Positions 2,997 through 32,671 of a stretch of 36,134 bases of DNA are shown in pieces. Origin of the DNA: Desulfobacterales bacterium (GTDB lineage Bacteria > Desulfobacterota > Desulfobacteria > Desulfobacterales > JAOZSB01); contig JAOZSB010000010.1 of NCBI GenBank assembly GCA_029939895.1, positions 1 through 36,134 of the forward strand. The letters run 5' to 3'. The notes beneath the pieces were generated by a model that saw only the letters and a program-made list of their open reading frames with translations, made no database searches and had not been told where the DNA came from. Position 1 is the stretch's first letter; the number at the start of each line of letters is the position of its first letter. Both the position numbers and the translations under genes were made by a program.

Positions 2997-3419
2997 ATGC
3001 TGAAAACAAGATACGAAAGCTTTGATCACACGGCAGACCTTGGTTTGAGAATCTATGGCAAAGACTTAAAGGAGCTTTTTGAAAATGCTGCCTTTGCCCT
3101 TTTTGATCAGATAACTGCAACCGACAGCGTTGGCGCATCAAAAAGCGAGGTTTTTGAAGTAACGGGTGATGACCCGGCAGACCTGCTGGTAGAGTGGTTA
3201 AGGGAACTTTTGTTTTTCTGGCTCGGCCATGACAAGCTTGCCCCAAAAACCGTGATAAAAGAAATTTCAAACAACCGGGTAAAAGCCAAGGTTTATTACG
3301 AAGAATATTTGCCAAAAAAACATCCTATTAAAACCGAAATCAAAGCCGTCACATATCACATGAATAAAGTCACCGAAATCGACGGAGGCTATGAAGCCAC
3401 AGTAATATTCGATAAGTAA
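2997..3419 (+). CDS. Archease, RtcB-activating protein
   Basis: The 140-residue protein matches the archease family in length and in its N-terminal signature SFDHTADLGLRIYG, followed by ELFENAAFALFDQ, LLVEWLRELLF and a C-terminal MNKVTEIDGGYEATVIFDK-like end with the metal-binding acidic residue. Archease speeds guanylylation of RtcB and broadens its nucleotide use. The gene lies just upstream of rtcB on the same strand, the usual pairing, separated by ~300 bp of palindromic repeats. The ATG at 2997 has only a weak GGCGG upstream. Confidence 0.93.
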   Translation: MLKTRYESFDHTADLGLRIYGKDLKELFENAAFALFDQITATDSVGASKSEVFEVTGDDPADLLVEWLRELLFFWLGHDKLAPKTVIKEISNNRVKAKVYYEEYLPKKHPIKTEIKAVTYHMNKVTEIDGGYEATVIFDK

Positions 3420-3425
3420 GTCGTT

Positions 3426-3567
3426 GTGCCTGATAAAAAAAGTCTTCGCAGACAATCTCTGCGTTGGAAAAAAAATATAATCCTCAACGTACAACCGAGT
3501 ACGTCTCCGGTTATATTCTTTTTTCCGCCTTGATCTTGACTGCGAATCCATTTTTTTCTTCAGGCAC
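3426..3567. repeat. Long imperfect palindromic element, copy 1
   Basis: The element starts with GTGCCTGA (3426-3433) and ends with TTCAGGCAC (3559-3567), so its ends are inverted repeats. The whole 142 bp folds back on itself: GGAAAAAAAATATAA near 3466 pairs with TTATATTCTTTTTTCC near 3511, TTCGCAG with CTGCGAA, and the tip is ACGTAC-AACCGA-GTACGT (3487-3504). There is a local hairpin CGCAG/CTGCG on the left arm. It lies directly after the archease stop and is partly repeated at 3591-3700. Confidence 0.8.
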
Positions 3568-3590
3568 GTTCAAAAGTTTTCGAAGTCGTT

Positions 3591-3700
3591 GTGCCTGATA
3601 AAAAAAGTCTTCGCAGCCAATCTCTGCGTTGGAAAAAAATATAATCCTCAGCATACAACCGAGTATGCTGAACAAAAAAACGTAACTATCATTCAGGCAC
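3591..3700. repeat. Palindromic element, copy 2, shortened right arm
   Basis: Bases 3583-3664 repeat 3418-3500 almost exactly, in the same orientation at a 165-bp offset. The copy also starts GTGCCTGA and ends TCAGGCAC (3692-3700). The tip stem differs but still pairs: AGCATAC-AACCGA-GTATGCT instead of ACGTAC/GTACGT, with the loop AACCGA unchanged. The right arm is shorter than in copy 1. It ends a few bases before the rtcB ribosome-binding site. Confidence 0.8.
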
Positions 3701-3716
3701 TTATAAGAAGGTGATT

Positions 3717-5156
3717 ATGAGAAAAGATATTAAACAGGCAGGCGAGTTTGTATGGGATGTTGAAAAAACAGATAATATGAACGTGCCGGGCAGGATATAT
3801 TCCAGCGTTGAGTTGATAGGCGATGTGGTAAAAGATAATGGAATTGATCAGGTCAAAAACGTGGCCCGCCTTCCTGGAATCGTAAAGGCCTCCCTTGCAA
3901 TGCCGGATATTCACTGGGGCTACGGTTTTCCAATCGGCGGCATGGCTGCCTTTGACTGGGATAAAGGCGTTATTTCTCCAGGCGGTGTGGGTTACGATAT
4001 CAACTGCGGTGTCAGGCTGGCTGTCACAAGCCTTACTGAAAGCGATGTTCAGCCAAAAATCAGCAAACTTGCAACTGCCCTTCATCAGGGGATTCCTTCG
4101 GGGGTTGGCTCAACCGGCTCTGTTAAGCTCGATAAAAAAGAAGTACTAAACGTACTCAAGAATGGAAGTAAATGGGCCGTTGAAAACGGGTTTGGAGTGC
4201 CTTCTGATGTTGACCGTACCGAGGAACAGGGCTGCCTTGCTGGTGCTGATCCTGAAGCCGTTAGCGACCGGGCCATAACAAGGGGTCTCAAGCAACTTGG
4301 AACCCTGGGTTCTGGCAATCATTTTCTGGAAATTCAGGTTGTGGATAAAATCTTTGATCAAGATGCAGCCCGTGCCTTCGGGATTTCACTGGGCCAGGTG
4401 GTTGTGATGCTCCATTCCGGCTCGCGGGGGCTTGGGCACCAGGTTTGCGACGACTACCTGTCATTGATGACAAAGCAGGCTGCAAAACTCGACATTGAAC
4501 TCCCTGACAAGCAACTGTCCTGCGCCTATATTAACTCTGAGAGAGGAATGCGCTACTTCCAGGCAATGTGCGCTGCTGCAAACTATGCCTGGGCAAACAG
4601 ACAAATACTTCTCCATCAAACACGGAAAATTTTTCAGCAGGTTTTCACAACAAGTGCTACATCCCTCGCAATGAACCTTGTATACGATGTGTGCCACAAC
4701 ATTGCAAAAAAAGAAAACCACATAGTAGACGGGAAAGAGCAAACACTCTGCGTCCACAGAAAAGGAGCAACACGAGCCTTTCCCCCTGGCCACAGTGCGT
4801 TGTGTGATGCATACAAGGAAATTGGCCAGCCAACCCTGATACCCGGCGACATGGGCTCAAACTCCTTTATCTTAAAGGGGACACAAAAAGCCATGGATGA
4901 GACATTCGGCTCCACGTGCCACGGCGCTGGCCGCAGGTTGAGCAGAACTGCTGCAAAAAAATTGTGCAAGGGACGCGCCATCCACAGAGAACTTCTCGAT
5001 AAAGGCGTACACGTTAAATGGACCGGCAGATCAACACTTCCAGAAGAAATGCCGGAAGCATACAAGGATATTGAAGCAGTTGTTGAGGTGGTGCATGGTG
5101 CAGGCCTGTCCCTCAAAGTTGCCAAAATGAGACCAATCGGGGTTGTTAAAGGATAA
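3717..5156 (+). CDS. rtcB: RtcB RNA ligase (3'-phosphate/5'-OH, GTP-dependent)
   Basis: The protein has 479 residues from the ATG at 3717. The in-frame GTG at 3711 overlaps the AGAAGG ribosome-binding site (3706-3711), so 3717 is chosen. RtcB joins RNA 2',3'-cyclic phosphate or 3'-phosphate ends to 5'-OH ends in tRNA splicing and RNA repair, using Mn2+ and GTP. The family residues are all visible: MPDIHWGYGFPIGG, VGYDINCGVRL with the metal Cys at 97, GSGNHF (His202), LHSGSRGLGHQV (His233), VYDVCHNI (His327), HRKGATRAFPPG, and CHGAGRRLSR with the guanylylated His at 402. Archease is the upstream neighbour. The length is normal for the family. Confidence 0.96.
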   Translation: MRKDIKQAGEFVWDVEKTDNMNVPGRIYSSVELIGDVVKDNGIDQVKNVARLPGIVKASLAMPDIHWGYGFPIGGMAAFDWDKGVISPGGVGYDINCGVRLAVTSLTESDVQPKISKLATALHQGIPSGVGSTGSVKLDKKEVLNVLKNGSKWAVENGFGVPSDVDRTEEQGCLAGADPEAVSDRAITRGLKQLGTLGSGNHFLEIQVVDKIFDQDAARAFGISLGQVVVMLHSGSRGLGHQVCDDYLSLMTKQAAKLDIELPDKQLSCAYINSERGMRYFQAMCAAANYAWANRQILLHQTRKIFQQVFTTSATSLAMNLVYDVCHNIAKKENHIVDGKEQTLCVHRKGATRAFPPGHSALCDAYKEIGQPTLIPGDMGSNSFILKGTQKAMDETFGSTCHGAGRRLSRTAAKKLCKGRAIHRELLDKGVHVKWTGRSTLPEEMPEAYKDIEAVVEVVHGAGLSLKVAKMRPIGVVKG

Positions 5157-15747: not shown

Positions 15748-16370
15748 TCATCACCCAAACCAGAAAAACAAAGATTTCGTATAGAAATTATTAATTAAAA
15801 AAGAAATTAAAGTTTGTGCTGGTTTACAAAAAATGGGAAGTGTTTCCTGGAATAGCCGATGTGCCTGATTCATCAATATACAACAAGTACATGCCAAGCC
15901 TTATGCTTTATGCTTTATTGATTGTGAGATTGCACAAAAAAAAAGCGACTGGGGTTTAGGGCTAAAAGATCAAGGCAACCATGGCAGTTTATGTGAGACA
16001 TTGCGTCAATTTCTTTGATGTGGGTGACACTGGCAACTCGTTGCCAGTGTACGAAGCACAAGAGGTTGCCGAGATTTTGTTGTGGATACGACAAGAAGTT
16101 GCTTTTACTTTTTTTGTCGCTCCCTCTTGCCCTTCGGACACCGGCAACGAGTTGCCGCTGTCACCCAAATTTACCTGAAACACAGAAAATAATTAGAACA
16201 GCGAAAGCCTGTGAGCCTGGGGTGCAGGTGTATTTATGTTGAAGTAAAGTCAATATTGCTGGGCTTCTTTGAAAGTCATTCCCTTGAACATGACCCTATG
16301 CAATTTTTCAATCATAGACATAAGAAAATGGAACGATCAGCCCAGCCTACGAACTCACCTTTCTATTATT
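15748..16370. other. Gene-poor region with a MITE-like repeat
   Basis: The stretch holds a structured repeat at 16022-16166, listed separately. A 54-codon open frame at 15795-15959 (KKWEVFPGIADVPD, YNKYMPSLMLYALL) with no clear start may be a gene fragment. A minus-strand 23-codon ORF near 16250-16320 (FKGMTFKEAQQY at its end) is too short to judge. The ORFs inside the repeat on both strands are products of its palindromes. Confidence 0.45.
16022..16166. repeat. MITE-like element, copy A
   Basis: The 145-bp unit starts GGGTGACACTGGCAACTCG and ends with the inverted form CGGCAACGAGTTGCCGCTGTCACCC-like end. Each end is also a hairpin in itself (ACTGGCAAC/GTTGCCAGT; CGGCAAC/GTTGCCG). It matches 33756-33902 in inverted orientation, including AGGTTGC, CGAAGCACAAGAGG and TCGCTCCCTC. 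Similarity continues ~25-40 bp outward on one side (TCAATTTCTT, GATGTGGGTGACAC). Confidence 0.85.
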
Positions 16371-32580: not shown

Positions 32581-32671
32581 TATATTTCGCCCTTACAGGG
32601 CTAATACTACGGGGGCGGGAATCTACCCAGGGCTTACGCCCTGGGCTGGTATATTTCGCCCCTTCAGGGCT
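32581..32671. repeat. Triple-hairpin repeat unit
   Basis: TATATTTCGCCCTTACAGGG (32581-32600) and TATATTTCGCCCCTTCAGGG (32650-32669) are near-identical direct repeats, each a small hairpin (GCCCT/AGGGC; GCCCC/AGGGC). Between them is the perfect hairpin CCCAGGGC/GCCCTGGG (32626-32645). Confidence 0.6.

Follow-up and report, generated by a model that had tools for sequence, protein, structure and literature searches.

The palindrome pair between archease and rtcB in a Desulfobacterales bacterium is very probably a non-autonomous mobile element with a conserved hairpin core

We analyzed a 36,134-nucleotide stretch of DNA from a Desulfobacterales bacterium (GenBank assembly GCA_029939895.1, contig JAOZSB010000010.1, positions 1 to 36,134; hereafter the window), in which two palindromic units lie in tandem between the genes for archease and the RNA ligase RtcB. 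The archease gene (2997–3419, plus strand; PF01951, E 5e-39) ends with a stop codon 6 bp upstream of unit 1, and rtcB (3717–5156, plus strand; PF01139, E 3e-178) begins with the ATG at position 3717; initiation at a GTG (3711), giving a longer gene, is possible. The evidence given below makes it very probable that both units belong to a non-autonomous, palindromic kind of transposable element (miniature inverted-repeat transposable element, MITE), unit 1 being a complete and unit 2 a damaged copy in tandem.

Unit 1 (3426–3567, plus strand) is a complete palindromic element of 142 bp bounded by GTGCCTGA (3426–3433) and TCAGGCAC (3560–3567). Its conserved core (3447–3548, plus strand) consists of CAATCTCTGCGTTGG, a stem, AATCCTC, the tip, CTCCGGTT, a second stem strand and CCGCCTTGATCTTGA; in the tip hairpin (3487–3504, plus strand), ACGTAC (3487–3492) pairs with GTACGT (3499–3504) around the loop AACCGA (3493–3498). 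Unit 2 (3591–3700, plus strand; 110 bp) follows after a spacer (3568–3590). It is a damaged or recombined copy, which retains the left half and both ends (GTGCCTGA at 3591–3598, TCAGGCAC at 3693–3700) while its inner right arm is altered. Because the last part of the spacer, AAGTCGTT, also precedes unit 1, the units repeat with a period of 165 bp, and at this spacing the left halves of the two units are 98% identical over 57 nt. The tip hairpin of unit 2 (3650–3669, plus strand) joins AGCATAC (3650–3656) to GTATGCT (3663–3669) around the same AACCGA loop and is compensated relative to unit 1. Both units folded better than 200 of 200 dinucleotide shuffles, unit 1 at −55.1 kcal/mol (z = −8.81) and unit 2 at −32.9 kcal/mol (z = −5.5). 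Between tip and right end, the arm of unit 2 has a different sequence, so pairing occurs only at its ends, in its tip and in one small local hairpin.

A sequence-only reading of this DNA had described twin units with common ends, an AACCGA loop and a tip stem that changed sequence with full pairing, the first unit being a nearly complete 142-bp fold-back. Our analysis agrees on the ends, loop and tip, and finds the fold-back of unit 1 to be complete. The word “twin” holds for the ends, the tip and the left half of unit 2, but not for its altered inner right arm.

The units are not confined to this locus. In the host genome (4.7 Mb in 529 contigs), BLAST matched the window sequence 42 times and a consensus 77 times. 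Tandem neighbors and reverse arms are included in these figures, and the number of dispersed units is about 50. Many of the units follow one another in tandem, at a period of around 164 bp, and many are located at the ends of contigs, as expected because repeats break an assembly. The same reading had hinted at a link between the palindromes and RtcB. This hint is not supported, given about 50 copies elsewhere in this genome and tens per genome across phyla; a device specific to RtcB and archease is ruled out by the dispersal of the copies, and the position beside an RNA ligase gene is probably chance. The reading had also held that numerous scattered copies with no conserved pairing would speak against a maintained structure; numerous scattered copies were indeed found, yet their pairing was conserved.

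In the host genome, many of the 164-bp units are flanked by another repeat, about 79 bp long (CTCCTAATAAACTTAA...). This repeat is intergenic, has 134 sites of CTCCTAATAAACTTAARTT and is often in tandem (for example L095 1501–1760, L100 and L103); its start borders many 164-bp units, and the two repeats together form mosaics.

We aligned 28 diverse sequences, including the window core (alignment A1), and built a covariance model from them (R1). The core consensus is GCGTY...AATCCTC-tip-CTNCGGTT...CCTTG. Unit 1 scored 88.2 bits (E 3.6e-23) with R1, its own sequence being one of the 28 in the model, and unit 2 was not among the matches of the R1 search over the window. Pairing was kept in 90.7% of the cells of the alignment, compared with 28–43% when the partners were slid and 68.9% in shuffles. 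Double changes affected 127 cells, compared with 45.1 in shuffles, and none of 500 shuffles reached as many. The way in which the sequences were selected biases the fixed columns of the pattern, but not the stems. Among R1 matches in a complete genome, which were not chosen by pattern, AATCCTC and CTNYGGTT were both kept in 21 of 23, and BLAST within the order revealed a homologous core enclosed by differing outer arms. The tip change in two copies alone had been weak evidence that structure rather than sequence is kept; the whole family confirms the covariation, and that claim now extends well beyond the two copies.

Such strong covariation over 28 relatives, together with the very stable fold, might suggest a structured non-coding RNA or a cis-acting mRNA element acting in stability, processing or termination, perhaps on the archease-rtcB mRNA. 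An invariant U-G pair and internal loops conserved on one strand would fit this explanation, as would the position in an operon spacer, which would place the element in mRNA. In addition, a similar palindrome, ERIC (enterobacterial repetitive intergenic consensus, also called IRU or RU-1), has been reported to change how stable mRNAs are in Yersinia, depending on its orientation (PMC2229807). However, by simple open reading frame (ORF) calling on loci that are not fully independent, cores between co-directional genes were sense in 45 cases and antisense in 40, and spacers between convergent genes were about as frequent as those between divergent genes (18 versus 17). Such a random orientation is evidence against a strand-specific RNA. 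In the complete genome G048, the sampled loci gave a GC skew with too much noise to locate the origin, and hence to assess orientation relative to replication. There was no Rfam match to the element, gathering and permissive thresholds yielding just a chance miRNA match, and the target-site duplications and site polymorphism described below point to a mobile DNA element. An RNA role for the family is therefore improbable, although individual copies could still affect host mRNA, by analogy with the effect reported for ERIC in Yersinia (PMC2229807).

The ends of the elements, and the duplications that they carry, point to mobility. When elements were grouped by terminal sequence, the duplications were specific to the end type, being 6 bp (TANNTA), 5 bp or 4 bp long. 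Elements with GTGYCCATCC ends had a 6-bp TANNTA duplication in 8 of 13 cases (0.5 expected), and those with GTGCCTGAACG ends in 8 of 15 (1.6 expected). A 4-bp duplication accompanied GAGCCAATTTC ends in 11 of 16 (0.4 expected), and a 5-bp duplication accompanied GAGACCTTTGC ends in 8 of 13 (0.0 expected). The end found in the window, GTGCCTGATAAA, and the host-genome consensus, GTGCCTGAATGAAAACTGC, are nearest to the GTGCCTGAACG type. In G048, several end types surround one core, and 24 of 25 copies are intergenic. Element length is 141–146 bp in most Desulfobacterota types, about 125 bp in Nitrospira and 162–164 bp in Burkholderiales; total lengths are thus steady across end types, which indicates that the ends changed within a fixed plan.

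For one end type, a matching insertion sequence (IS) was found. A genome of the same order (G021) carries an autonomous IS of 1675 bp with ends GTGTCCGTCC/GTGTCCATCC and TAGATA duplicated on both sides, which encodes a 452-amino-acid ISNCY transposase (443 bits, curated cut-off 325). Its GTGTCCRTCC ends and TANNTA duplication are like those of the GTGYCC type of the element; ISNCY and IS5 insertion sequences differ from the element in coding for a transposase and in lacking the core hairpin. An IS5-like element of 462 codons in G048 leaves TACCTA. The other IS elements of G048 with a PF01609 transposase (CTCGATG, CTCAAGTTTTCG, CAGTAGTGTCCGG and CCCATCTTTTTGA ends) showed no match to the element's end types. 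This complete genome (C1) contains 102 DDE_Tnp_1 (PF01609) matches, about 40 of them near-identical 390-codon copies with CAGTAGTGTCCGGTTA ends.

A long imperfect hairpin with conserved mismatches might instead be transferred in single-stranded form by an HUH enzyme, either as a REPIN by a REP-associated tyrosine transposase or in the manner of IS200/IS605 elements. One half-element in G048 (L301, about 1489–1518) lies some 480 bp downstream of a gene resembling a REP-associated transposase (482–1003), as this mode of movement might predict. We consider it very improbable: a fixed duplication length for each end type is the mark of a DDE transposase and is not produced by HUH enzymes, and neither of the two Y1 transposase genes of the host genome (PF01797; L072 and L073) is flanked by the element. 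At L073 (G000:C24), the Y1 (REP-type) gene lies between direct repeats of about 230 bp that start with CGTAGGCTGGGCTGATCG (about 1160–1400 and 1990–2220); these look like a REP array belonging to the transposase, with no relation to the window unit.

Polymorphic sites also speak for movement of the element as a MITE. At an orthologous Nitrospira site just after a conserved gene, the element is present in two species and the site is empty in at least six others. At the orthologous site in one Nitrospira genome (G066, L377), both element ends are present and the core is swapped for about 250 bp of other sequence. G048 also contains core-less elements of 38 bp that consist of the two ends only (L296 1501–1538 and L315 1501–1538), one of them with TATTTA duplications; judging from their sequence, they are probably deletions between CTATTT direct repeats within a full copy.

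These observations are consistent with a mechanism in which the terminal inverted repeats would be cut and inserted in trans by an IS5/ISNCY-like DDE transposase of a resident IS, each insertion leaving a duplication whose length would be set by the end type. The central hairpin core would be retained by selection or by the copying process, and the terminal repeats would have diverged to fit different transposases. In the host genome, the element has additionally spread as tandem duplications of about 164 bp. The family shows several features of a MITE: short non-coding copies (141–146 bp), tens per genome, dispersed between genes. Terminal inverted repeats are accompanied by target-site duplications at the level of the family, with no duplication seen at the window copies, and ends common to an autonomous IS are seen for the GTGYCC type, not for the GTGCCTGA type of the window.

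Several points weigh against this interpretation. Transposition itself is deduced from sequence comparison, not observed, and the window copies lack a visible target-site duplication. The host genome yielded no IS bearing the window's own end, GTGCCTGA, which otherwise occurs there at single sites without an inverted partner at IS distance, so that movement of this subfamily is judged from its end type. Because a matching IS and duplications at the window copies are both missing, the window subfamily may be old and may nowadays spread chiefly through tandem duplication. The existence of end-only elements with duplications means that the core may be dispensable for movement, and its conservation is left unexplained by the MITE interpretation. 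The core may act in transposition or bind a host factor, or its conserved mismatches may protect a long palindrome from destruction or deletion. Elsewhere in the window, a single GATGTGCCTGATTC site (15854–15870) with no inverted partner nearby is possibly the remnant of one end.

We sought the core in other bacteria. R1 found it in 41 of 58 sampled genomes of the order, at 1 to at least 70 copies each, and, patchily, in 29 of 89 genomes sampled across the phylum. A single scan of GTDB genomes with the degenerate pattern AATCCTCNNNNTAC-loop-GTANNNCTNCGGTT gave at least 116 stretches, against an estimated 3 or so expected by chance. The matches listed came from Nitrospira, Desulfobacterales and other Deltaproteobacteria, Burkholderiales, Oligoflexia, Omnitrophota, Uhrbacteria, Melainabacteria/Vampirovibrio, Clostridia and Synergistaceae, these being depositors' names, with misbinned contigs possible. 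In most members of every group, inverted repeats beyond the pattern exceed those of shuffles. Matches to their own subfamily number at least 30 in each of several Nitrospira genomes. In a plasmid collection, the Desulfobacterales representative had no match; the Burkholderiales representative had two weak plasmid matches and no match in a phage collection. A literature search, which did not reach most subscription papers, found no description of the shared core.

Matches so distributed could reflect convergence, with unrelated MITE families having evolved similar central hairpins, no lineage crossing phyla and ERIC unrelated to any of them. The cross-phylum matches were, after all, picked by a core pattern, and the Clostridia members have little in common beyond it. 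Beyond the pattern, however, an upstream CGTY and a downstream CCTYG block occur together in 58 of 84 matches (single-block backgrounds 18% and 7%), with coupled spacing of 13/14 or 3/4 nt. The near-constant length of Desulfobacterota elements across several end types is also difficult to reconcile with independent origins. We regard convergence as an unlikely explanation, though it is a more serious one than an RNA role or HUH transfer.

The comparison with ERIC bears on the same question. ERIC is an intergenic palindrome of similar size (127 bp) that inserts between co-transcribed genes; published accounts treat it as a MITE bearing terminal repeats and duplications (PMC2229807, PMC10969869). 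Using the Escherichia coli copies at ybhJ-ybhI and cusF-cusC, we found that the ERIC core aligns in the same orientation as that of the family (TGCGTT ... tip ... CTCCTGGGG ... CGCCTTCCTG), while the ends, tip and much of the arms differ. The forward alignment beat the reverse in 72 of 80 members. Against 43 non-redundant members, ERIC reached a mean local score of 21.0, above the maximum of 20.9 among 2000 decoys that preserve its palindrome and composition, and its reverse complement was ordinary (p 0.73). On the side of convergence, nhmmer with family profiles reported no match on ERIC, and R1 placed ERIC in the correct register without significance (E 0.12–0.4); the likeness is thus significant against decoys, not by hidden Markov or covariance model. 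From these sequence comparisons, homology of ERIC with the family appears likely. ERIC has been reported only from Enterobacteriaceae and Vibrionaceae (PMC10969869), whereas the window family lies outside that range, in Desulfobacterota-like genomes, Nitrospirota, Burkholderiales and others. The literature consulted names no transposase for ERIC, its mobilizing enzyme being unknown (PMC2229807).

The family is apparently an old lineage with repeated changes of transposase. MITEs are usually viewed as internal deletions of one IS, short-lived and host-specific. A core common to several phyla under several end types would instead represent a long-lived non-autonomous lineage that switches transposase, and would supply ERIC with a family and with candidate helpers. 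In its strongest form, to which we give an even chance, an ancient palindrome has persisted across phyla, its ends repeatedly swapped, parasitizing unrelated transposases that leave 4-, 5- and 6-bp duplications, with ERIC as a late branch. If so, the core must have a transposase-independent function, such as binding a host factor, stabilizing the palindrome or taking part in transposition. The family also carries a warning: in environmental genomes, many intergenic hairpins that covary are mobile DNA rather than riboregulators.

Among other known repeats, REP/REPIN sequences resemble the element in being dispersed, intergenic, hairpin-forming and arranged in tandem mosaics. REPs are 20–40 bp long with a GTAG or CGTC tag (PMC3733652); the element differs in its fixed-length duplications, in showing no such tag and in not flanking the host's Y1 genes. 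RUP of pneumococcus, for which mobilization by IS630-Spn1 has been proposed (PMC2229807), and Correia/NEMIS of Neisseria are likewise short, palindromic and non-autonomous, but each is limited to one genus or species; no core in common with the family was noticed, no comparison having been run. By eye, and with no integrase search made, we saw no RYYYAAC...GTTRRRY pair of the integron attC kind. Finally, the window contains an Acido-Lenti-1 RNA (32626–32671, plus strand; 59.4 bits, gathering score 37), a member of a known, uncharacterized family of small RNAs.
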